Shown here one piece after another: positions 1,202 to 12,906 of a stretch of 12,906 bases of DNA. Below the pieces are notes generated by a model. It saw only the letters and a program-made list of their open reading frames with translations. It had not been told where the DNA came from and ran no database searches. Source of the stretch: Candidatus Zymogenus sp. (lineage in GTDB: Bacteria; Desulfobacterota; Zymogenia; Zymogenales; Zymogenaceae); contig JAUWME010000019.1 in assembly GCA_030613285.1 (NCBI GenBank), positions 1-12,906 of the forward strand, given 5' to 3'. The translations under genes and the position numbers were made by a program. Position 1 is the stretch's first letter. Each line of letters opens with the position of its first letter.

Positions 1202-1576
1202 TCAAGTTAGAGCAACAACCTCAATTTCGATGTCGAATCCTGCGGGGAGCTCCCGAACACCAACACAGCTTCTGGCCGGCGGGTTTTCTCCAAAGATCTC
1301 CCCGTAGGCCCCGTTCATCTCGGCAAATTTCCCCATATCGGTCAAAAAGACCGTGGTCTTCACAACCTTTTCGAGGGAGGAGCCTGCCTCCTTCAACGTT
1401 GTTTCTATATTCTCCAAAATCAATTTTGTGGCACGGGGAATGTCTCCATTTATCTTCTCCCCGGTCTTGGCATTAATGGCCAGATTGCCAGAAACAAAGA
1501 CAAGCCCCGCCCCGCAGACTGCGTGGGAGTATGGCCCCGCCTTCGAAAGTGATGGTACATCAATACACTTTTTCAT
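1202..1576 (-). CDS. ridA: RidA family (YjgF/YER057c/UK114) enamine/imine deaminase
   Basis: This is a complete 124-residue protein, the usual length of the family. The characteristic segments are in order: GPYSHAV (Tyr16), GLVFVSGN (near residues 24-31), the helix with NIETTLKEAGSSLEKVVKTTVFL, and ARSCVGV with Arg102, which corresponds to the arginine that binds the substrate carboxylate in RidA. The IEIE strand near residues 116-119 carries the conserved glutamate. Known RidA proteins are small cytosolic trimers that hydrolyse reactive 2-aminoacrylate-type enamines released by PLP enzymes; some subgroups have other or unknown activities. The start ATG has AGGAG about 6 nt upstream. It lies in the same direction as the membrane 4Fe-4S gene, but a 198-nt gap makes co-transcription uncertain. 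A link to the sugar-acid genes is not evident. Confidence 0.9.
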   Translation of the reverse strand: MKKCIDVPSLSKAGPYSHAVCGAGLVFVSGNLAINAKTGEKINGDIPRATKLILENIETTLKEAGSSLEKVVKTTVFLTDMGKFAEMNGAYGEIFGENPPARSCVGVRELPAGFDIEIEVVALT

Positions 1577-2050: not shown

Positions 2051-2653
2051 CTATCTCTCCATTGCAGACTTCAGGTTCACATCACAGAGAAAGTCAGTAA
2101 TCTCCTCCCTTGTGTGTTTCCCCTTTAAGTTCCACCGCCTCAAAACCCCAAATGCCGAGGAGGACACAAGGTTGTTGGCCGTAAGGTCGGCCTCACCATC
2201 AGAAAGGCCAATCTCCAAAAGTATCTCCTTAAATTTGGCGACTATCTCAGCCTCTCTGGTCAAGATGTCCTTCAAATAACGCTTTTTCATATACCTTGCT
2301 TGAGTGAAGGCAAGCATAACCTGATCCTCAAGCTCAAAGCAGACATCAATGTGAGCGCGGTAGGTGATGAGGAGGCGTTTTTTCGGGTCATCTTCAAGTT
2401 GGATATCGGCGGAATTCAGCTTTGCATAGAAGCTGTTCATGTAGTTTTGATAAAAGAGATAGAGGATATCATCTTTGGATTTTACATAGTCGTATATGCT
2501 GCCAAGCCCCAGCCCCGATGCCTCGGCGATGTTTCTGACCGTAGCCTTGTGGTAGCCCTTTTTTGTAAAAACCTTGATGGCCCCATCGACGATCCGCTTT
2601 CTCTTCTCGTCAACAAGCCTTGTATCCTTAACTCTCGATTTAACTTGCTTCAT
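2051..2653 (-). CDS. TetR/AcrR-family transcriptional regulator
   Basis: This is a complete 200-residue protein, typical of TetR regulators. The N-terminal DNA-binding domain (about residues 15-65) has the family pattern: a first helix ending in AIKVFTKKGYHKATVRNIA, then the helix-turn-helix AEASGLGLGSIYDYVKSKDDIL near 43-64. The remaining residues are a helical ligand and dimer domain without a recognisable ligand signature. The composition resembles acyl-CoA or fatty-acid responsive members, but that is only an impression. The first ATG is used; its ribosome binding site is weak (GGTGG about 12 nt upstream), and the 14 or so residues before the domain are basic. The gene stands alone, with its own promoter, operator palindrome and terminator, so autoregulation is likely. 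Its other targets cannot be read from this window. Confidence 0.9.
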   Translation of the reverse strand: MKQVKSRVKDTRLVDEKRKRIVDGAIKVFTKKGYHKATVRNIAEASGLGLGSIYDYVKSKDDILYLFYQNYMNSFYAKLNSADIQLEDDPKKRLLITYRAHIDVCFELEDQVMLAFTQARYMKKRYLKDILTREAEIVAKFKEILLEIGLSDGEADLTANNLVSSSAFGVLRRWNLKGKHTREEITDFLCDVNLKSAMER

Positions 2654-3283: not shown

Positions 3284-3919
3284 ATGATAAATGACGTTAT
3301 TACAGAAATCGAAAAGATAAAAATCATCCCGGTGATAAAAATAGGGGACGCAAAAGACGCCCTCCCTCTATCCCACGCCCTGATTTCCGGCGGAATCCCC
3401 ATAGCCGAGATAACCTTCAGAAGCGATGCGGCAGAAGAGTCAATTAGACAGATGGCAACCCTTGATGATTTTCTCGTGGGTGCTGGAACAGTGTTGACTG
3501 TGGAAACCGCAAAGAAAGCAGCGGGTGCCGGGGCAAAGTTTATCGTAAGCCCTGGGCTTAATGAGGAGGTGGTCAGGTACTGCCTCAAAAACAATCTCCC
3601 CATCGTCCCCGGCGTTATGACGCCGACAGAGATTGGAGCAGCCCTTGCCCTTGGGATTGACGTCCTGAAGTTTTTTCCGGCAGAAGCCGCCGGCGGCGGA
3701 AAGACGCTGCAGGCCGTGGGCGCCCCCTTTGGCAATGCCCGCTTTATCCCCACGGGGGGGATCAACATTGATAACATCGGGGATTATCTCGGTCTCAAGA
3801 ATGTCCTGGCCGTGGGAGGCAGCTGGATGGCAAGCCCTAAGGATATCGAATCCGGGAATTTCGGGGAGATTGAGAGACTCACGAAAGAGGCTGTATCAAT
3901 TGTGAGAAAGCTAACTTGA
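3284..3919 (+). CDS. eda: 2-dehydro-3-deoxyphosphogluconate (KDPG) aldolase
   Basis: This is a complete 211-residue class I aldolase of the usual length. It cleaves KDPG to pyruvate and glyceraldehyde 3-phosphate, the last step of the Entner-Doudoroff route; many homologues also accept 4-hydroxy-2-oxoglutarate. All family landmarks are present: EITFRS (Glu42, Arg46), GAGTVL (66-71), SPG (89-91), PGVMTPTE (109-116), LKFFPAE with the Schiff-base Lys129, PTGGI (156-160) and GGSW (178-181). It forms a single TIM barrel in the cytosol. The ribosome binding site is weak (GGGATC upstream). The gene is convergent with KDG kinase, which makes its substrate. Copies of the same dispersed repeat lie on both sides. 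No strong terminator is seen downstream. Confidence 0.96.
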   Translation: MINDVITEIEKIKIIPVIKIGDAKDALPLSHALISGGIPIAEITFRSDAAEESIRQMATLDDFLVGAGTVLTVETAKKAAGAGAKFIVSPGLNEEVVRYCLKNNLPIVPGVMTPTEIGAALALGIDVLKFFPAEAAGGGKTLQAVGAPFGNARFIPTGGINIDNIGDYLGLKNVLAVGGSWMASPKDIESGNFGEIERLTKEAVSIVRKLT

Positions 3920-4152: not shown

Positions 4153-5229
4153 TTACCTCTTAATCCGCCCCGACTTATCACCCTTAAAAAGCGCCATTAT
4201 TTCATCATGCGTAGATAGATTCATGTCTCCCTCTACAGAATGGCAGAGGCAAGACGCCGAAACCGCATACTCCAACGCATCCTTTAACGTGGTAAAATGA
4301 GAAAGCCCATAGATTAAACCTGCCGAGAAACTGTCGCCCCCACCCACCCTGTCAACGATGTGTGTGATGTCATACTTCCTCGAAAAAAGGGTCTCAATCC
4401 CATCTGTAAGCATCGCCCCCCAGCGGTTGTGGGATGCGGAAATGCTTTCTCGTAAAGTTATGGCAATCAGCTTCACGTTGGGATAACGGTCAAGTACATC
4501 ATGGGCGAGCTTATGGTATCGACCCTCCTCGATCTCTCCCATCCCCGGATCAATATCGGTTCCAATCCCCAGCGATTTCTGACAGTCCTCCTCGTTGGCA
4601 ATTACCACATCTGTAAGGCGCGTCATTTTGTCCATCATTTCAACGACGCCTTTTTCCCCTTTCACATATTTCCAGAGCTTTGCCCGGTAGTTGAGGTCAA
4701 GAGAAACCACCATCCCGGCTTTTTGGGCGGTCTCCATGGCAACCAGTGACTCCCTTGCAGTCTTTGCCGTAAGCGCCGGTGTAATCCCGGTGATGTGGAG
4801 CCAGCCACAACCATCAAACGCCCCCTCCCAATTTATCGCCCCGGGTTCAATCTCGCTAATGGCAGAGGGCAGCCTATCGTAAATCACCCTTGATGGTCGT
4901 TGGTTCGCCCCCCTCTCCATAAAATATATCCCCATACGGGCATCCTTGATAAGGACAACTTTGGAGACATCTACGCCATATCCTTTGAGCATCCTTAAAG
5001 CCGACCGGGCGATTTCATTATCCGGCAGCGCCGGTACAAAACGACTCTTAAGCGTCTGGAGGGCAAGGCTTACCGCAACGTTGGCCTCACCGCCGCCGAA
5101 GGTGGCCTCAAGGGTTGGGGACTGAAAGAGCCTCGTAAAGCCTGGGGAGGAGAGCCTCAACATAATCTCGCCGAAGGATACGTAGATTTTATCAGCCGGG
5201 TTTTCCTGCTGAAGTTTTGTTATTGTCAT
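4153..5229 (-). CDS. kdgK: 2-keto-3-deoxygluconate (KDG) kinase, PfkB/ribokinase family
   Basis: This is a complete 358-residue sugar kinase, slightly longer than common KdgK proteins of about 310-340 residues. It would phosphorylate KDG with ATP to give KDPG, the substrate of the aldolase encoded convergently. The N-terminal part carries VSFGEIMLRLS and the substrate-binding GGGEANVAVSLA (45-56). The C-terminal PfkB signature is DRVGGGDSFSAGLIYG (293-308), with Asp299 as the catalytic base and the Gly run as the anion hole. SLDLNYR (176-182) is also typical. The ATG at 5229 has GGAG about 8 nt upstream. Transcription runs leftward from the direction of the large unassigned gene, with a repeat-filled gap of 294 nt. 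A related activity on another 2-keto-3-deoxy sugar acid, or fructokinase-like specificity, cannot be ruled out, but the aldolase neighbour favours KDG. Confidence 0.9.
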   Translation of the reverse strand: MTITKLQQENPADKIYVSFGEIMLRLSSPGFTRLFQSPTLEATFGGGEANVAVSLALQTLKSRFVPALPDNEIARSALRMLKGYGVDVSKVVLIKDARMGIYFMERGANQRPSRVIYDRLPSAISEIEPGAINWEGAFDGCGWLHITGITPALTAKTARESLVAMETAQKAGMVVSLDLNYRAKLWKYVKGEKGVVEMMDKMTRLTDVVIANEEDCQKSLGIGTDIDPGMGEIEEGRYHKLAHDVLDRYPNVKLIAITLRESISASHNRWGAMLTDGIETLFSRKYDITHIVDRVGGGDSFSAGLIYGLSHFTTLKDALEYAVSASCLCHSVEGDMNLSTHDEIMALFKGDKSGRIKR

Positions 5230-5523: not shown

Positions 5524-7620
5524 CTACTCCGCAAACTCAGTAGACTCTCGCATCCCCCGCTTCAGGTCAAGGGCCACCTTGTGCCCGCCACATTTAATCT
5601 CAATTTTATCCGGCCCGAACTCCGCCTCCACATATTGATTATCATATCGCGGATAATCTTCCAAATCAACCGATTTCCCATCAACCATAAAATTCCCCCT
5701 CCAGCCGAAATCGATTACCCCAATTGAAGGAGATTTGTATCTCACCGATGTCCCCTTGAAATCAATCTCAGCCCCAACAATCTTTTCGATAAATTCGGTA
5801 AAGTTCCCATCAATCACACGTCTTCCCATCTCCACAACCCAGATGTTTTTCCGGGAATCGCCGTTTTCGCCATCACATATTACCTCACTCCCAGCATCAT
5901 CACCCACATCCTGCCAGCGATAGCCATTCTGGGAATAAAGGGCGATATATCCATCTCCATACCTCCCAAAAATCCACCCCCCCCGCTCCACCACCTCGTC
6001 AAATTCATCTTTTGGAAACCATGCATGGGAAAAAAACAATTTGTTTGTCATGTAAAGCCCCGGCATCCTCGAAGCATTGTAGGAGGCAACCAGAACGTTT
6101 TTTATTTGAGCCACCCTGGGGAGTGTCCCCGACCCCACCCAGTAACCACCGCTTGAGTTCTCCTCGTGGCCGGGGTGGGTTGTAAAACAGACAGCCCTGG
6201 GCGAGAAGGTTGCCTGCCAGATGTGCTGCTGGTCACCGCCGTACCCCTTCCTGTAATCTTGGGCGGCACTCAACATATAGTCCGGCGTCCGGTACGTGTA
6301 GAGATTCACCTCCTCCCTGGTGTTTCGAGAAAGATCCTTTTTTGTAAGATAAGCAAGCAGAGGGAGAATCCTTGTGAGCCTCGTCAGCTTGATGAGAGAC
6401 TCGAAATCTTTGAAGGGCTTAAAGAACTGGTTTTCCCACCACCGAAATGCGTCAAACATCCTCATTGTCAACATTATCGTCTTTGGGTGGTTGTACGCCT
6501 CAAGGGTCAAAAAATTCATCCCGCTTTCAAAATCATTGTAGTTTAGCCCCCACCTCTTCGCCTCCTTGATCTTTATCCCCATCCTCTGGCGGTTTGCCAT
6601 GTCAGTGGTGTTGGTGTCGTTGGCTTTTTCATTGGCGATATTGTAGATGGCACTGGGAAGCCTGTATTTGTTTCCGAGAGCAAGGGAGACCGCACTCATG
6701 TTGTCAGACCCCGAAAACTTACCGGTTCCAAACATCAGCTTAAAGGTGTCTGTGGTCGATTCTATCTCGGCGTTTCTTTTCTCCTCGCCGTAGCTTCGGC
6801 CGTGGGAGGAGCCAAACACCCCTTTAAAGGAATTCAGCGCCATATCAAGAAAGATCAGGTCGAGAACAATCTCGGCACCCCGAACGATTATTGGGTCATG
6901 GCAAAAGTCGATGAGGTTAACCAATGCCGTGATATCCTCATCGTAGTAAATGTGGGAGAGCCACTCCGAAAATCCGGTCTTGTAGCGGAGTTCCAGCCAC
7001 TTCATAATGCGCACTTTGGCTTTTTCCATCTTCTCAATGCCAGTCATCTTTGAGTTGGTAAAGACGGTGTCCTTAAACATCTGCCCAGCAAGGTACTCGT
7101 TTGTCGCAAACATGATGTAGTGGGTTTCCGTCCAGTAGCACATGGAATCGATCCCCGGCTCATCCGGGTAATATTTAAAATCGATGAGCGTCTTCTTTGC
7201 GTCCACCACAATTTTATCCGGCAAAAGCTTACTATCTCTTAATTGATATAGCATCCTCACAATCCCCAGCATCACAAAATCGGCGCAGTCGTACCGCTCA
7301 TCGATGTAGCGAAGGGCAGCCGAGATAAGTCCGGTATGTACGGGGCCAATATTTTCTGAAAGGCGGACAAGCTCGTAGTAGTACCCCTTAATATTTGGAC
7401 TGGCCGGGTTTTTGAGACAATGCTGGATAAAAGCCTTTCGTCTTTTTTTAAACGTGGGAAGAAACGTTGATGTAGAAAAGGTGTCCGGCACCTCCTTCGG
7501 ATAGCCCTTGGGAGGGTTGCCAACATTCTTAAAGGTAAAATCGGCCATCCCTGTTGTGTCGAAAAAATCGTGGACGAAGACTTTCTCTTTATTTTTATTT
7601 ACATCGTTTTCTTTTTTCAT
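5524..7620 (-). CDS. Uncharacterised 698-residue cytoplasmic protein; candidate intracellular polysaccharide lyase or glycosidase
   Basis: I cannot assign this to a named family. The frame is open upstream to 7758, but I place the start at ATG 7620-7618, which has AGGAG 6-8 nt upstream; the extra 46 codons would run through a REP-like repeat. The N-terminus is charged (MKKENDVNKNKEK) with no signal peptide or membrane helix, so it should be cytoplasmic. Residues about 60-440 look mainly helical, as in (alpha/alpha)6-toroid enzymes; about 455-698 look strand-rich. Conspicuous motifs are WTETHYIMFATNEYLAGQ (163-180), FGSSHGRSYGEEK (269-281: His273, Arg275, Tyr277), GDQQHIW (462-468), HPG (482-484) and GGYWVGSG (491-498). 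The clustered His, Arg and Tyr residues resemble lyase or hydrolase active sites, but that is inference. It lies 97 nt downstream of the GPH symporter gene on the same strand and upstream of KDG kinase. That context favours cleavage of an imported uronic-acid-containing oligosaccharide. Confidence 0.8.
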   Translation of the reverse strand: MKKENDVNKNKEKVFVHDFFDTTGMADFTFKNVGNPPKGYPKEVPDTFSTSTFLPTFKKRRKAFIQHCLKNPASPNIKGYYYELVRLSENIGPVHTGLISAALRYIDERYDCADFVMLGIVRMLYQLRDSKLLPDKIVVDAKKTLIDFKYYPDEPGIDSMCYWTETHYIMFATNEYLAGQMFKDTVFTNSKMTGIEKMEKAKVRIMKWLELRYKTGFSEWLSHIYYDEDITALVNLIDFCHDPIIVRGAEIVLDLIFLDMALNSFKGVFGSSHGRSYGEEKRNAEIESTTDTFKLMFGTGKFSGSDNMSAVSLALGNKYRLPSAIYNIANEKANDTNTTDMANRQRMGIKIKEAKRWGLNYNDFESGMNFLTLEAYNHPKTIMLTMRMFDAFRWWENQFFKPFKDFESLIKLTRLTRILPLLAYLTKKDLSRNTREEVNLYTYRTPDYMLSAAQDYRKGYGGDQQHIWQATFSPRAVCFTTHPGHEENSSGGYWVGSGTLPRVAQIKNVLVASYNASRMPGLYMTNKLFFSHAWFPKDEFDEVVERGGWIFGRYGDGYIALYSQNGYRWQDVGDDAGSEVICDGENGDSRKNIWVVEMGRRVIDGNFTEFIEKIVGAEIDFKGTSVRYKSPSIGVIDFGWRGNFMVDGKSVDLEDYPRYDNQYVEAEFGPDKIEIKCGGHKVALDLKRGMRESTEFAE

Positions 7621-7717: not shown

Positions 7718-9178
7718 TTACCTCTCAAGGAGGCTCTTAAGCTCCCTCTCTTCTGCAATCATCTCAGGCGTCATCTCATCTGTCAATCTCCGTTTGTCGA
7801 GATGGCCCTTGATGCGGGCGTGGAGTGCCGGCGTCAATTTGTACTTAAAGGCGTTATATACGCAAAAGACCAAGAATACGACCGGGATGATTGCAAAAAC
7901 CAGTTTCAATACCACAATGAACTCTGGGGTCTGGGACTGAGGAATTTTTGTCATAATCCCGTTGATTTCTTTCTCAATCGGCGGCACATAGCCCGCTAAG
8001 GAGATAATTTGGGCAATTAGAAATATCCCAATGGCTGAGCTGAGCTTTCTTGCAAACATGAAAAGCCCGGAATAGATACCCTCTCGCCTCTCGCCGGTGT
8101 AAAGCTCGTCGATGTCCGGAACATCTGCGAATATCGAGTAGATCATAATGACTATACCCCCCGTTCCGACACCTACGAGTCCGCCGAAAATATAAATCAC
8201 CGCCTTGGACATCTCTGGTTTGATGAGCAAGCTTGAGACCATAACTGCCATCCAGAACAACGCCGCAATCATGAAGCTTGTTTTCTTGCTGGTGATTTTA
8301 CTTACCTTCGCGTAGATGGGGATCACAAGGATTTGAAGCACCAAAAGCGTTCCCAATACGTAGTCTGTCTCGTTCAAACGGTGAAGGTAATACTTCATAA
8401 AGTAGATGACGATGCTCATAACGGCATCAATGGCCACAAAGGCAAACAGATACATCAAGAGAACGTTTAGAAACGTGGGGGTCTTGAAAGGCTCGATGTA
8501 TGAACGTCTAAAGCTGAAGGGTTCAGGTTGTTTTTGAAACTCCTCCCTCTCGGTGGTTGTCAAAAACGTCGCAACAAAGGGAATTGCGAAAAAGAGCCCA
8601 AAGGCCACTGCAATAATGATATATGCCGACCGTTCATCATTGGGAAAGAGTTTGACAATCTCCAGGGGCAAAACGGCGCACAAGAGGGATGACAATCCAG
8701 AAAAGACAATCCGATATGTAGTGAGGGACGTCCGCTCGTTGTAGTCCAGCGTCAGCTCCGATGCCAGAGCGTTGTAGGGTATCATAACCATGGTTATGAC
8801 CGTGGAGAAGAAGATGTAGGCGATGAGAACGTAGAAAAAAAGATGCAGATTATTTTCTAAGTCGATGGGGTACCACATCAGGAAAAACGAGATGAAGATC
8901 AGAACGATACCTGCCAAAAAGTAGGGCCTCCTCCTCCCGAACCGCGTTCTCGTCCTGTCGGAGATGTACCCCATCATGGGATCTGTTACCGCATCCCATA
9001 TTTTACTTACTAAGAAAACGATCCCGGCAAGGGCCATAGGAAGTCCAAGGACATCGGTGAGAAAATGCAGGTAATAAATCCCGATGATAAGCATGGCGCC
9101 TCCGCCGTAGATATCGCCGACACCGAAGCCGAGCTTCGTTGAAAGTTTAAGCTTCTGGTCGTTACTTGTCTCTTTCAT
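7718..9178 (-). CDS. GPH-family (MFS_2) sugar:cation symporter
   Basis: This is a complete 486-residue, about 12-helix inner-membrane transporter of the glycoside-pentoside-hexuronide:cation symporter family (MelB, GusB, YicJ relatives), which import sugars with Na+ or H+. The diagnostic segment after the first helices is WDAVTDPMMGYISDRTRTRFGRRRP (61-85; given here as a landmark). Asp62 and Asp66 match the MelB cation-site aspartates, followed by the basic DRTRTRxGRRRP loop. Family length is about 450-490 residues. The ATG at 9178 has AGGAG about 9 nt upstream. The gene precedes the unassigned 698-residue protein gene by 97 nt on the same strand, so the pair is probably co-transcribed. Sequence alone does not give the substrate; the KDG kinase and aldolase neighbours point to a uronide or sugar acid. 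Confidence 0.93.
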   Translation of the reverse strand: MKETSNDQKLKLSTKLGFGVGDIYGGGAMLIIGIYYLHFLTDVLGLPMALAGIVFLVSKIWDAVTDPMMGYISDRTRTRFGRRRPYFLAGIVLIFISFFLMWYPIDLENNLHLFFYVLIAYIFFSTVITMVMIPYNALASELTLDYNERTSLTTYRIVFSGLSSLLCAVLPLEIVKLFPNDERSAYIIIAVAFGLFFAIPFVATFLTTTEREEFQKQPEPFSFRRSYIEPFKTPTFLNVLLMYLFAFVAIDAVMSIVIYFMKYYLHRLNETDYVLGTLLVLQILVIPIYAKVSKITSKKTSFMIAALFWMAVMVSSLLIKPEMSKAVIYIFGGLVGVGTGGIVIMIYSIFADVPDIDELYTGERREGIYSGLFMFARKLSSAIGIFLIAQIISLAGYVPPIEKEINGIMTKIPQSQTPEFIVVLKLVFAIIPVVFLVFCVYNAFKYKLTPALHARIKGHLDKRRLTDEMTPEMIAEERELKSLLER

Positions 9179-9521
9179 GGTTTAGTCTCCTATTATAAAA
9201 AGTTTACTTCAAAGAGTTTAAAATTGTGTCATTGTCTGCGGTCTCCTCCTGTATCCAGACGATAGGGACAGCCATTGCACCGCACAAAACAATTGTCTGC
9301 TTTAACAAGGGGCTTAAGCCCCTTGTTTTATATTATGATTTTATTTAGCCTGGATTCCCGCTTACGCGGGAATGACAGATAACTATTATGTCATTTAAGA
9401 GCATTCCGAAGAAATACGCGGCAATCTCGTTGTTATAGCAACATTGTAGGAGCAACCCCCTGTGGTTGCCCTTAAATATCAGTTTTCATTATTCGTAATG
9501 CCCCAAAAGGAGTATGGGGAT
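9179..9521. repeat. Gene-free gap with several repeats
   Basis: This 343-nt stretch separates the symporter from the dehydrogenase operon and has no coding frame I would support. From left to right it holds the second copy of the 33-nt unit (9208-9240), the 24-bp perfect palindrome listed separately, an intact REP-like hairpin (9350-9378; stem ATTCCCGC/GCGGGAAT, loop TTAC), a truncated copy D of the composite repeat (9389-9427, TCATTTAAGAGC... to GGCAATCT), and a small hairpin GCAACC/GGTTGC (9452-9469). Confidence 0.65.
9304..9327. terminator. 24-bp perfect palindrome, possible terminator
   Basis: AACAAGGGGC-TTAA-GCCCCTTGTT can form a 10-bp GC-rich stem with a 4-nt loop. On the plus strand it is followed by TTTATATTATGATTTTATTT, a passable T-rich tail; on the minus strand the tail is AAAGCAG, which is poor. 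The only transcript expected to reach it comes from the dehydrogenase operon on the minus strand, so the better orientation has no gene to serve. It may be another dispersed hairpin repeat and not a true terminator. Confidence 0.4.
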
Positions 9522-10565
9522 TTATCTCACAAATTCAAGATACCTGTCATCAACAGGCTCCCGCTTTCCCGTTGCCGATGATTTGTAAAGGGCCATAATC
9601 GTTGAAAGCACCAGCAGGGCCTCCTCCACGGGAGTGAGGTATTTTTCGCCATCCACCACCCACCGTCTGAAACCCTCGATGCTCCGAAAAAGGGCATGAA
9701 GATTGGAGAGGCCCCGGCCTGGGGGTTTCTCCATTTTTATCTTTGCCCCCAAAAACTTCACCTTGGGAGATTCCGGCCCGGTATAAATCCCCGTACCTTT
9801 GCTGCCATAGACCTCGGCGGTCACTTTCTGCTCCGGAGTCGCAATCATCGAAGCTGATATTGTAAGGTGTGCAAGGCGTCTTCCACTCTCTATCTCAACA
9901 ATTCCCAACGCCGTGTCCTCCACCTCCACATCTTGGTAAACCTTTTTGTCAACAACCCCAAAAACAGACACAGGCCTGCCACCCATAGCCAAAAGCATCA
10001 CATCGATAATGTGGCTGGCTTGGGTCAAAAGCGTCCCGCCACCCGACCTCTCCAAACTTCCGTGCCAAGGGGCATCGCCAAAATATTCCGGCCCCCGCCA
10101 CCACGGAACGTTGCATCGACCATAATAAATATCGCCCAGCTCCCCCTTTCTTGCTGCAGATATAAGGGCATAACACCCGCTGTCATAGCGATACTGGTGG
10201 TTCACGCCGACTTTTCTCCCAGTCTCCTTAGAGAGACGACATATCTCAAGCGCATCATTGAGAGTGGTAGCTATCGGCTTTTCGCAGAAGACATCAAGCC
10301 CCCTCAAAATCGCAGATTTTATCATCCCGACGTGGAGGTTGTGGGGAGACGCAATATAGACTGCATCGACATCAGCATCCTCTAACATTTTTTCGTAATC
10401 GTCAAAGGAGTTTTTGATCTTAAACTTTTTTGCAAAGGCCATAGCCCTCTCCCCATCGATATCCACACAGGCGCCAATCTCAATCTTACGATTCAATCTC
10501 ACGCCCAGCGCCGTGTACCTTGCAATGTCCCCGCAGCCAACGATGGCCATTTTGAATTTTTTCAT
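9522..10565 (-). CDS. Gfo/Idh/MocA-family NAD(P)-dependent oxidoreductase
   Basis: I chose ATG 10565-10563, giving 347 residues, the usual length. AGGGGTGA lies upstream and overlaps the stop codon of the preceding gene; the longer frame to 10613 would run into that gene. The N-terminal Rossmann fold shows AIVGCGDIA (7-15) and Asp35 ending strand 2 (ACVDIDGE), which favours NAD(H). EKP (95-97) holds the conserved lysine Lys96, and SHIID (184-188) the conserved His185. Four residues before that histidine there is Thr, where many members (for example inositol dehydrogenase) have Asp; TQxxH variants are known in this superfamily. Members oxidise or reduce hydroxyl groups of sugars and cyclitols. 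It is the last gene of a tight three-gene operon with a ThuA-like protein and a flavoprotein. The substrate is unknown; 3-keto-sugar formation or reduction is one option. Confidence 0.92.
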   Translation of the reverse strand: MKKFKMAIVGCGDIARYTALGVRLNRKIEIGACVDIDGERAMAFAKKFKIKNSFDDYEKMLEDADVDAVYIASPHNLHVGMIKSAILRGLDVFCEKPIATTLNDALEICRLSKETGRKVGVNHQYRYDSGCYALISAARKGELGDIYYGRCNVPWWRGPEYFGDAPWHGSLERSGGGTLLTQASHIIDVMLLAMGGRPVSVFGVVDKKVYQDVEVEDTALGIVEIESGRRLAHLTISASMIATPEQKVTAEVYGSKGTGIYTGPESPKVKFLGAKIKMEKPPGRGLSNLHALFRSIEGFRRWVVDGEKYLTPVEEALLVLSTIMALYKSSATGKREPVDDRYLEFVR

Positions 10566-10575
10566 AATATCACCC

Positions 10576-11202
10576 CTACTTGTTAAATCCCAAAACCCAC
10601 TTAATCCCCCCAATAATTATCTTCTGGACTTCATCTACATTGAAAACTTTGGCCACATGCCCCAACGAAAAATAGCAGACCTTACCCTTGCCGTGCCTCC
10701 TCGTCCAGACAACTGGCTCCTTTTTTCCATCCACCTCTGTCTCAAAGTGGACAGTAACGTCGTCTTTATACTCGTGGATGTAAAGCTCGTCATTGACTGT
10801 GAAGGGATCAATTTTCCCAAAGATATTTGAATCTGAATCCGCAGGAATAACAGTAAAATTGCCCACCTTCCCGTGAGATACAAACCTCCCGCCGAGGATG
10901 TCGAAATATTCGGGAGTAGCCTTAAATGAGGCCGAAGCAGAGTGGACAGCGAACAGCCCCCCCCCGGAGGCCACAAAATCGCTTAGAGATTTTAGGGCAT
11001 CGGGCGAGATATATTTTTTGTGGAAATAGCGGCAGACCGCATCGTAGCCACCCCCTTTCAAGGCACCCAAGTCCTCAATGGAGGAAGTAACGACGGGCCT
11101 AATCCCATCAATTCCCTTCAAAATTTTAAGAAGCTGTCGCCTTGCAAAAATCGTCGGGTGGAAAACCCCCGCCGAGACAATCAATACTCTTTTTTCCATC
11201 AT
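10576..11202 (-). CDS. ThuA-like domain protein
   Basis: This is a single-domain protein of 208 residues, or 207 if the second ATG (11199) is used. AGGTGAG lies so close to the first ATG that the second is better placed. It has the class I glutamine-amidotransferase-like fold of ThuA: VLIVSAG (6-12), GGGLFAVHS (80-88), GGRFVSHG (104-111), DELYIHEY (138-145), WTRRHGKGKV (166-175) and SLGH (179-182). In place of the amidotransferase nucleophile Cys it has AVHS, as is usual for ThuA relatives, so glutamine hydrolysis is unlikely. ThuA was first linked to trehalose use in rhizobia together with the Gfo/Idh-type ThuB, through 3-keto-trehalose. It lies 10 nt from the Gfo/Idh gene and 15 nt from the flavoprotein gene. 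That spacing implies joint expression and one pathway. Its catalytic step is not known to me. Confidence 0.85.
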   Translation of the reverse strand: MMEKRVLIVSAGVFHPTIFARRQLLKILKGIDGIRPVVTSSIEDLGALKGGGYDAVCRYFHKKYISPDALKSLSDFVASGGGLFAVHSASASFKATPEYFDILGGRFVSHGKVGNFTVIPADSDSNIFGKIDPFTVNDELYIHEYKDDVTVHFETEVDGKKEPVVWTRRHGKGKVCYFSLGHVAKVFNVDEVQKIIIGGIKWVLGFNK

Positions 11203-11217
11203 CTCACCTTTTATCTA

Positions 11218-12906
11218 TTATGTTTTTGAATATATCTTCCCCTCACGAAAATCCCGCCACACCTCCTCAAACCAGCTTTCGGTTTTTGGTATCGGCCTGA
11301 CCTGAACCGGCCAAGCCTCGCCCTTGAGGTCGCTATCATCGCTATCATATCTAAACTCGACAATTGTATCTAACGATTCATCAACAGTGACTCTCAGTTC
11401 TTGTCCTATATTCTCATCATATTTTTTTGCGATGTCACTGATGTTTCCCACCAAAAACGACCCCCGGCCTCCCTTCAATTTCTTCAGTAGCGCAAGAGCC
11501 GATATTAACATTGCCCTTTCAGTCAACAGGAGGTCTTCGTTTCTGAGGTAGGCGGAAATCTCATTACGATTTTTTATGCCGGCAATGGTGTGCTGAGAAA
11601 GTGCCTCCCCGTTTTCCACAAGGGCGTCCTCAATATCGCCGATGTTTCTCACAATTCCCATGACGGCAGACATCCTCTCCTGAATTTGTGCCCGCTCAAC
11701 TTTTGGATCAACCTTCTTTTCCAAGTGGGTAATCCGCTTTAAGCAGTTCATCTTATCAGCGATTTTTTCGATACCCTTTTGCCTCACCTTTTTCTCATCT
11801 AATATATTGACATTTGAACGCCCCACCTCTGAACACCTCCAGGCAATCATCTGGGCGGCGCGTAGAGAACCCACTTGCCCAGAGTTCAAGGCACTACCGC
11901 CGGGACGATAGACGCCGTGGGTACCAGAACACTCCCCCACCGGAAAAAAGTTCTTGATGTTAGACTCCCACCAGATGGAGCCCAAAAGCCCGCCGTTCAC
12001 GTGCTGATGACAGACGGCAATCTCCAGAGGCTCTCTTTCAAGATCGGTGCCGTTTTCCTTAAATAGTTTAAATGCCGGGAGATTCATTTCTATCAGTCGA
12101 TCCGCCGGAGTTGCACCCACAGCTTTTGATTTCTGCAAATACTCCCCAACAACCGCAGGTGCGGTGTCGATGGAAAATTCAACACCCTCAATTGTCGGGT
12201 TCTTCGTGTAATCCAAAAAGACCCTGCGATTTTTGGCAGTCCTCTCGATGTAAACAGCAAGATCGATATTGGACGACCCGAAGGAATCGATCTTCCTCAC
12301 ATCAAAGGGCCACTGGTAACCTTTAAGAAACTGTGCCTGAAAAAGGAGATCGGGTTTGGGGAAATAGTCGTTTAAAAACTCCCTTTCGTCATTGCCGTCC
12401 AAATCCGTAGAGAAGTACCGAGGGATTACCTGCTGGTAACTCCCCGAAAGGTTCCAGCGAAAGGGGGTGGATGCAATGCCGAATTGAGACTCGGTAAGAT
12501 TTTGGGCCACAGCCCCGGCCTTCATGGCAATCCCCAAAGAGCCCACCTGCGATCTGGGATAGACGCTCTCTTTATAAAGGCCCGCCGGCCCCCCCGTACC
12601 GTAAACGACGTATCGGGCAGCAATTAGCCGAAGCCCAAAGTTCTCATCATCCACACCTTTATGGTCAAGGGCGATAAGCCCAGAGATGCTTTTTGTATCG
12701 CCATCAGAAATTGTAACGAGATCAATGACCTCCAACCCATCGAGGATTGGGATGTTGAGTCGCCTCACCTCATCAAGGAGCCTTTGGTACATTGCGATGG
12801 AGGTGTTCGGCCCCGCAGACGTTCCACGAGACCTCTCATCGTGATCGGTCTTGTAGCCAACATAGTTGCCAAAACAGTCGTGAGGAAAGGGGACGCCCAG
12901 CTCCAC
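11218..12906 (-). CDS. FAD-dependent oxidoreductase, fumarate reductase/SdhA-like flavoprotein (N-terminus outside window)
   Basis: The frame is open through the right edge; 562 codons are visible. The GTG at the edge is probably internal, because the N-terminal GxGxxG dinucleotide-binding segment is missing. The visible part follows the FAD_binding_2 pattern: GPNTSIAMYQRLLDEVRR (32-49), GLEVIDLV (57-64), ARYVVYGTGGPAGLY (97-111), the substrate-side segment CHQHVNGGLLG (299-309), and the FAD-binding end FFPVGECSGTHGVYRPGGSALNSGQVG (320-346; landmark). Fumarate reductases and L-aspartate oxidases have a similar end with RLGGNSL; here it is RPGGSALNSGQVG. About 210 mostly helical residues follow, as in the SdhA C-terminal region. 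There is no partner iron-sulfur subunit in the window. It is first of the visible three genes, 15 nt before the ThuA-like gene. A sugar or sugar-acid oxidising or reducing role is inferred only from context. Confidence 0.85.
   Translation of the reverse strand: MELGVPFPHDCFGNYVGYKTDHDERSRGTSAGPNTSIAMYQRLLDEVRRLNIPILDGLEVIDLVTISDGDTKSISGLIALDHKGVDDENFGLRLIAARYVVYGTGGPAGLYKESVYPRSQVGSLGIAMKAGAVAQNLTESQFGIASTPFRWNLSGSYQQVIPRYFSTDLDGNDEREFLNDYFPKPDLLFQAQFLKGYQWPFDVRKIDSFGSSNIDLAVYIERTAKNRRVFLDYTKNPTIEGVEFSIDTAPAVVGEYLQKSKAVGATPADRLIEMNLPAFKLFKENGTDLEREPLEIAVCHQHVNGGLLGSIWWESNIKNFFPVGECSGTHGVYRPGGSALNSGQVGSLRAAQMIAWRCSEVGRSNVNILDEKKVRQKGIEKIADKMNCLKRITHLEKKVDPKVERAQIQERMSAVMGIVRNIGDIEDALVENGEALSQHTIAGIKNRNEISAYLRNEDLLLTERAMLISALALLKKLKGGRGSFLVGNISDIAKKYDENIGQELRVTVDESLDTIVEFRYDSDDSDLKGEAWPVQVRPIPKTESWFEEVWRDFREGKIYSKT

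Follow-up and report, generated by a model that had tools for sequence, protein, structure and literature searches.

The stretch of DNA analysed here (the window) comprises 12,906 nucleotides of a contig from Candidatus Zymogenus sp. and carries, on the minus strand at 5524-7620, a gene for a protein of 698 residues. We find it fairly likely that this protein works in the cytoplasm as a beta-eliminating enzyme on sugars that contain uronic acid and that it represents an undescribed sequence family with the toroid-plus-beta build of polysaccharide lyases (PLs). The support in hand is the predicted fold, the conservation, a recurrent operon and a linkage to genes of glycoside hydrolase (GH) families 88 and 105; from these we infer the substrate, the chemistry, what the residues do and the whole of the route proposed below. 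The family is large and unnamed and occurs in many bacteria and in some Asgard archaea; judging from the model and from the genes that often lie beside it, its members are probably lyases that have been overlooked as a family. If this is true, about 2,600 proteins to which no function is assigned (where names were shown) would gain a testable role in the breakdown of acidic sugars, a lyase family would probably be founded in CAZy, and a uronide pathway with unusual flavoenzymes, so far unmapped, would come into view. The gene and its parts are as follows.

5524..7620, minus strand: predicted beta-eliminating uronide lyase of an undescribed family, 698 residues, start uncertain (from relatives, model and fold comparison)
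6331..7452, minus strand: N-terminal helical toroid domain, residues 57-430 (AlphaFold2 secondary structure; VIA-align rows over residues 54-657)
5542..6309, minus strand: C-terminal antiparallel beta domain, residues 438-693 (AlphaFold2; also modelled and searched alone)
7120..7125, minus strand: Thr166-His167, predicted carboxylate-binding motif at a toroid helix start (Asn 59/62, His 62/62)
6946..6948, minus strand: Tyr225, predicted catalytic Tyr, 59 residues after position 166 (61/62; from register and spacing)
6790..6804, minus strand: His273-Gly-Arg275-Ser-Tyr277 (HGRSY), between Tyr225 and the beta domain (His 61/62, Arg 62/62, Tyr 62/62)
6175..6177, minus strand: His482 at a beta-domain strand end, candidate general base (60/62)

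Predicted fold and sequence family

The single open reading frame (ORF) runs from an ATG at 7620 to a stop codon ending at 5524, the interval that an earlier note on this DNA had given, and the plus strand over the same interval is interrupted by stop codons. We take it to be a true gene and not a chance frame because 33 columns are invariant among 62 relatives with identity down to 36%. The start codon is uncertain: the same frame is open further to a TTG, giving 744 residues, and the database copy (P0001) has 721, while most of the 120 relatives listed have 665-690. The N-terminus is hydrophilic (MKKENDVNKNKEKV) and a crude hydropathy scan found no obvious signal sequence, in keeping with the claim of the earlier note that the protein lacks a signal peptide. 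In the same scan, the N-terminus was hydrophobic in 10 of 62 family rows and included a lipobox-like Cys in several (Myxococcota, Halioglobus), and the family therefore seems to have both cytoplasmic and exported branches.

The AlphaFold2 model (pLDDT 92) places a helical toroid first and a beta domain after it, being mostly helix to about residue 430 and strand-rich over 438-693, which bears out the helical N-terminal half and strand-rich C-terminal part read earlier from the letters. The model and the fold comparisons thus predict the toroid-then-antiparallel-beta order of the lyase superfamily. In Foldseek the best 10 PDB chains, three with E<=1e-3, were all toroid polysaccharide lyases, and toroid lyases again ranked first, by a small margin, when the beta domain was searched alone. 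The fold matches are uronate lyases and one epimerase, and no confident match to a family of non-carbohydrate function appeared.

The earlier note had left open a lyase or a hydrolase, and the Foldseek result speaks for the lyase half of that proposal, although the elimination could be one of water. A toroid-bearing glycoside hydrolase or phosphorylase (of the GH116, GH52, GH92 or GH95 type) does appear among the fold matches and would be an alternative. These matches span roughly one domain, however, and in them the toroid comes after the beta domain, opposite to the order in the window protein: in GH116 (8r1m) the toroid occupies chain residues 398-802, and the beta domain lies at 25-354 in GH95 (4ufc) and at 24-279 in GH92 (7fe1). 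None of those among the matches listed outranks the best lyases, with the whole model or the beta domain alone. We consider a hydrolase very unlikely because the domain order is that of the lyases.

By sequence the protein matched no family in Pfam (E<=0.1) and none in NCBIfam or PHROGs; the PDB gave a single chance row by sequence (E 0.9) and nothing by profile at E<=10. The family thus appears undescribed by Pfam, NCBIfam, PDB, PHROGs and the literature searches made, a comparison that CAZy lies outside. Among 7,647 candidates, 2,592 matched the window protein at E<=1e-3, and where the source gives a name, the 120 listed are called hypothetical or uncharacterised. With a Trueperaceae relative (36% identical) as a second query, 1,213 of 7,997 scored candidates matched, one entry of 791 residues among the matches listed having an acetyltransferase name and domains. 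A genome scan found 121 relatives, from which 80 loci were kept. The bacterial relatives come from Spirochaetota, Chloroflexota, Myxococcota, other 'Deltaproteobacteria', SAR324, Planctomycetota, Hydrogenedentota, Poribacteria, Bacteroidota, Bacillota, Pseudomonadota (Exilibacterium, Halioglobus) and one member of the Trueperaceae, and further relatives occur in Asgard archaea; a literature search for a polysaccharide lyase in Lokiarchaeum ossiferum found nothing. In the window's own phylum the family is present in 4 of 297 sampled genomes, its own included, and this sparseness suggests loss or transfer. Three loci (L012, L020, L055) carry two adjoining family copies, which suggests specialised paralogues.

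Conserved residues and the predicted active site

Conservation was counted in an alignment of 62 family sequences, in window numbering. Invariant in all 62 are H167, R212, Gly216, E219, W220, R275 and Y277; Y225 and H273 are found in 61, H482 in 60 and His466 in 44. The seeds of the locus search cover residues 158-165 and 216-223, so conservation in these two stretches is inflated for the rows found by that search; the other listed positions lie outside the seeds. The motifs of the earlier note sit at the residues it gave, and the five residues whose conservation it had proposed to map (His167, His273, Arg275, Tyr277 and His482) are each kept in 60-62 of the 62 sequences. In its WTETHY motif the His held up as a family feature, whereas the Thr before it is atypical: position 166 is Asn in 59 of 62 sequences, Ser in two and Thr in the window protein. 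The Thr codon, ACC at 7123-7125, is one base from Asn and could be a natural substitution or a sequencing error; the nearest relative (P0002, 77% identical) carries Asn.

Published toroid lyases are described as using an Asn, a Tyr and mostly also a His of the beta domain, for example N238, Y291 and H444 in PL33 and N245, Y305 and H485 in PL40. The Asn-to-Tyr spacings in the table of PMC12088678 are 59 in PL8 (1RWA), 54 in PL12, 54 in PL15 (exoHep), 57 in PL17, 63 in PL23, 53 in PL39 and 54 in PL35, and the same source gives a neutraliser other than Asn for PL15 Atu3025, PL21 and PL8 ABC lyase II. The spacing of 59 between position 166 and Tyr225 falls within this published range of 53-63. The register was tested by aligning the family profile with hhalign to 13 PF07940 proteins, with column-reversed profiles as controls; a check of one of the 13 (L091) showed a match to heparinase III chains (E 5.3e-17). 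In the unforced alignment TETH falls on the invariant Asn-His of the PF07940 proteins, and with the toroid alone Tyr225 also falls on their invariant Tyr. The scores were 19.2-19.5 against 13.2-13.9 for the reversed controls, at E values of 0.06-0.11 that are not significant, and the alignment backs the register of 166/167 and Tyr225 without proving it. Tyr225 thus appears to lie at the site where toroid lyases keep their catalytic Tyr, and from the sequence comparisons it is the likeliest catalytic Tyr. The earlier note had instead counted Tyr277 among the potential catalytic residues and had not listed Tyr225; on spacing and register Tyr277 appears less likely.

The general base is less clearly placed. 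His482 as the exact counterpart of the lyase beta-domain His was dropped, as the alignments scored below their reversed controls (13.1 against 13.6 and 8.0 against 13.0). Since the beta-domain alignment failed, His482, Tyr225 itself and HGRSY all remain candidates; for a catalytic His within the beta domain, His466 is a candidate beside His482. The distance from Tyr225 to His482 is 257 residues, compared to the Tyr-to-His spacings of 130-166 tabulated in PMC12088678 for PL12, PL15, PL17, PL21, PL35 and PL39, and the window protein must therefore have a longer stretch here.

Gene neighbourhoods and the proposed route

In the window, the flavoprotein, ThuA, Gfo/Idh/MocA dehydrogenase and GPH symporter genes lie upstream on the same strand as the lyase candidate, and the PfkB kinase lies downstream.

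11218..12906, minus strand: fumarate-reductase-like flavoprotein, truncated by the window end (PF00890; full length in relatives)
10576..11202, minus strand: ThuA-family protein (PF06283)
9522..10565, minus strand: Gfo/Idh/MocA sugar dehydrogenase (PF01408, PF22725, PF02894)
7718..9178, minus strand: GPH-family sugar/cation symporter (PF13347; TIGR00792 at 244.2 bits, over cut-off)
4153..5229, minus strand: PfkB kinase, probable 2-keto-3-deoxygluconate (KDG) kinase (PF00294; kinase half of NF041633, below cut-off)
3284..3919, plus strand: 2-keto-3-deoxy-6-phosphogluconate (KDPG)/2-keto-4-hydroxyglutarate (KHG) aldolase (Eda), tail to tail with the kinase (PF01081; TIGR01182 over cut-off)
2051-2653, minus strand: TetR regulator
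1202-1576, minus strand: RidA-type protein (PF01042)

The earlier note had placed the gene between a GPH symporter and a KDG kinase on the same strand; the positions, the symporter and the PfkB family hold, while the kinase falls under the cut-off of every curated KDG-kinase model among the matches listed (NF041332: 180.4 against 440 bits). It is matched best by the kinase portion of the KHG/KDPG aldolase-sugar kinase fusion NF041633 (E 5.6e-131), at 437.8 bits against a cut-off of 700 that applies to the whole fusion. In a relative from the same genus (G013) the order is LacI, short-chain dehydrogenase/reductase (SDR), flavoprotein, ThuA, Gfo/Idh, a short opposite-strand ORF, GPH symporter, family protein, PfkB kinase and a convergent Eda. 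An SDR in the window's own operon would be beyond view, because the window ends inside the flavoprotein gene. The neighbouring SDR was considered as KduD and rejected, its score being below cut-off; for its relative in L004, a 3-ketoacyl-ACP reductase model (over cut-off) gives a better fit than KduD does.

ThuA follows the family closely in this phylum, being found in 4 of 297 genomes, in 3 of which it shares a contig with the family protein; the fourth match is weak (E 3.8e-14). The flavoprotein is looser, with 10 of 297. Two flavoprotein relatives (47% and 56% identical) occur in phylum genomes without the family protein, and an SDR lies near one of them (L121, 6063-8126) on the opposite strand, separated from it by one ORF. 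Members of the Gfo/Idh and ThuA families have parts in 3-keto-sugar chemistry. A literature search on ThuA showed nothing on this operon among the entries listed. A perfect 24-base palindrome, AACAAGGGGCTTAAGCCCCTTGTT, lies at 9304-9327, in the gap that separates the Gfo/Idh and GPH symporter genes, and might act as a terminator in both directions or as an operator that divides the operon. A promoter and terminator scan gave no clear excess over shuffled sequence (12 against 10.0 and 12 against 10.8).

The route that we propose would begin with import of a small uronide by the GPH symporter. Its carboxylate would be bound by position 166 and His167, and Tyr225, with His482 or HGRSY, would remove the C5 proton and protonate the leaving group at C4 to give a 4,5-unsaturated uronate. 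For the window's organism we propose an exo cut next to a uronate at the reducing end, which would release a free unsaturated monouronate; such a cut is the simplest version there because no GH88/105 gene was found in its genome. The monouronate would turn into 4-deoxy-L-erythro-5-hexoseulose uronate (DEH), an SDR would reduce DEH to KDG, the PfkB kinase would convert KDG to KDPG, and Eda would split KDPG into pyruvate and glyceraldehyde-3-phosphate. The account in PMC8778563 has alginate users take unsaturated monouronate through DEH and KDG in this manner, with an SDR-type reductase, KDG kinase and KDPG aldolase, and the operon of the genus relative holds matching kinds of enzyme (SDR, PfkB kinase and Eda). 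In relatives that carry GH88/105, the unsaturated residue would stay on the oligosaccharide and be removed by the hydrolase.

The linkage to GH88/105 is informative since, according to PMC8511951, both families need an unsaturated uronate, which is the product of an eliminase. A GH88/105 gene lies nearby in 9 of 76 loci, and PF07470 matches over cut-off at its position in all 9 genomes. Five of these genomes (3.6-6.1 Mb; L013, L029, L062, L066, L070) have exactly one PF07470 match, near the family protein; L057 has two adjoining pieces that are probably one gene and is a likely sixth, and the others have two (L049), three (L023) and nine (L022). Eleven hand-picked genomes of other contexts gave no match in 8, one below cut-off and two over it, and these counts make GH88/105-linked and other contexts near alternatives. 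On the family tree the GH88/105 label needs 3 changes against a shuffled mean of 7.5, with 0 of 500 shuffles as low, and the three changes may represent one gain and two losses. Some caution on GH88/105 identity comes from the L070 protein, whose sole NCBIfam match listed is the beta-galactosidase-type BglB (126.5 against a cut-off of 420).

The same closeness to GH88/105 and to importers of small sugars would fit a uronide dehydratase, removing water rather than sugar from C4 of a saturated non-reducing-end uronic acid to make the GH88/105 substrate. There is precedent in the ulvan dehydratase P29_PDnc, which acts on a disaccharide, makes a GH105 substrate and is proposed by its authors to have a PL-like mechanism, its relatives being predicted with family PL37 (PMC8511951). 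However, D248N, K303I and a change of an Arg are reported there to inactivate P29_PDnc, whereas Y306F leaves it active, a pattern unlike the layout proposed here. The window's genome (88% complete; PF07470 search 0 of 1) and the 8 hand-picked genomes without a match would also be left with a product and no hydrolase, and we therefore regard a dehydratase as unlikely, though it is the main rival to a lyase. A uronosyl C5-epimerase could have the same fold and residues, as dermatan sulfate epimerase 1 does, but the nearby KDG-pathway genes and GH88/105 suit elimination, and a cytoplasmic epimerase would have no obvious role in a catabolic operon, making this highly improbable.

Across the family, the ORFs of 76 loci, many on short contigs, were clustered. 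Neighbours were GPH/MFS2 symporters in 23 loci, Gfo/Idh in 16, SDR in 14, ThuA in 12, old yellow enzyme (OYE) in 10 and GH88/105 in 9, followed by dihydrodipicolinate synthase (DHDPS)-like proteins in 7, PfkB in 6, FAD flavoprotein in 5, KDPG aldolase in 5 and FGGY kinase in 4. In 47 loci a same-strand gene lies less than 300 bases upstream (symporter 14, GH88/105 5, SDR 3, Gfo/Idh 1, none of these 24). Of the 76 loci, 34 contain counted sugar-use genes, as do 25 of the 44 that extend at least 3 kb to either side, so that the sugar-use setting expected by the earlier note is borne out in the branches linked to a symporter or to GH88/105 but not in the remainder.

The loci with none of the eight counted sugar-gene clusters (42 of 76, or 19 of the 44 that reach 3 kb to either side) weigh against a uronide lyase. 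Together with Thr166 in the window protein and the different neighbours at some Myxococcota loci, they would suit a fold relative past uronate chemistry, for example one acting on a non-uronide glycoside alongside the ThuA, Gfo/Idh and flavoprotein neighbours. We give this a very slight chance, as the proposed active-site residues are nearly invariant across phyla and GH88/105 and KDG genes recur. Myxococcota loci L059, L060 and L065, with lipoprotein-like N-termini, lie near AMP-binding and thiamine pyrophosphate (TPP)-dependent enzymes (L060 representatives were profiled) and not near counted sugar genes. A bolder form of the uronide lyase proposal is possible, yet doubtful: a widespread intracellular eliminase family, Asgard archaea included, with a new catalytic layout in which HGRSY replaces the conserved beta-domain His, and an uncharacterised pathway in which the fumarate-reductase-like flavoprotein or an OYE relative reduces the unsaturated product and ThuA and Gfo/Idh handle the other sugar. 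That a flavoenzyme would reduce an unsaturated acid is speculation.

Comparison with known lyases

The window protein is predicted to be built like the toroid-plus-beta-sheet lyases of PL8, PL12, PL15, PL17, PL21, PL33, PL35, PL39 and PL40. With the PL8 chondroitin, hyaluronate and xanthan lyases it shares the predicted fold (1rw9, 1rwa, 1ojo), and position 166 and Tyr225 are 59 residues apart, as Asn and Tyr are in 1RWA, but where 1RWA has a His 9 residues before the catalytic Tyr, the family has Gly216 (62/62), if Tyr225 is catalytic. The PL8 profile PF02278 and its relatives have no match in the window protein (Pfam, E<=0.1); as a PL8-type comparison set PF02278 was found in 0 of 148 phylum genomes but also in 0 of 14 controls and is uninformative. 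A PF16332 (DUF4962) set was left unused, with matches in 5 of 148 genomes, 2 over cut-off and all to short parts of the profile.

PF07940 (Hepar_II_III_C), which we take to cover PL12, PL15, PL17 and PL21, likewise gave no Pfam match at E<=0.1, and its 13 proteins aligned to the family without significance, as above. Unlike the PL15 and PL17 oligoalginate lyases (Atu3025, Alg17c), to which PDB searches found no sequence similarity, the window protein has the conserved HGRSY. PL12, PL21, PL33, PL35, PL39 and PL40 have the predicted fold in common with it and a similarly spaced Asn/Tyr pair where reported, with no sequence kinship by Pfam and PDB searches.

Beyond these lyases, P29_PDnc (PL37) makes a GH105 substrate from a uronide, which suggests a role for an eliminase near GH88/105, although its reported key residues differ. 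Human dermatan sulfate epimerase 1 shares the predicted fold but is described as a biosynthetic epimerase and has another genomic setting. In conclusion, the fold and the class of chemistry are already known, and what appears to be new is the sequence family within this known superfamily.
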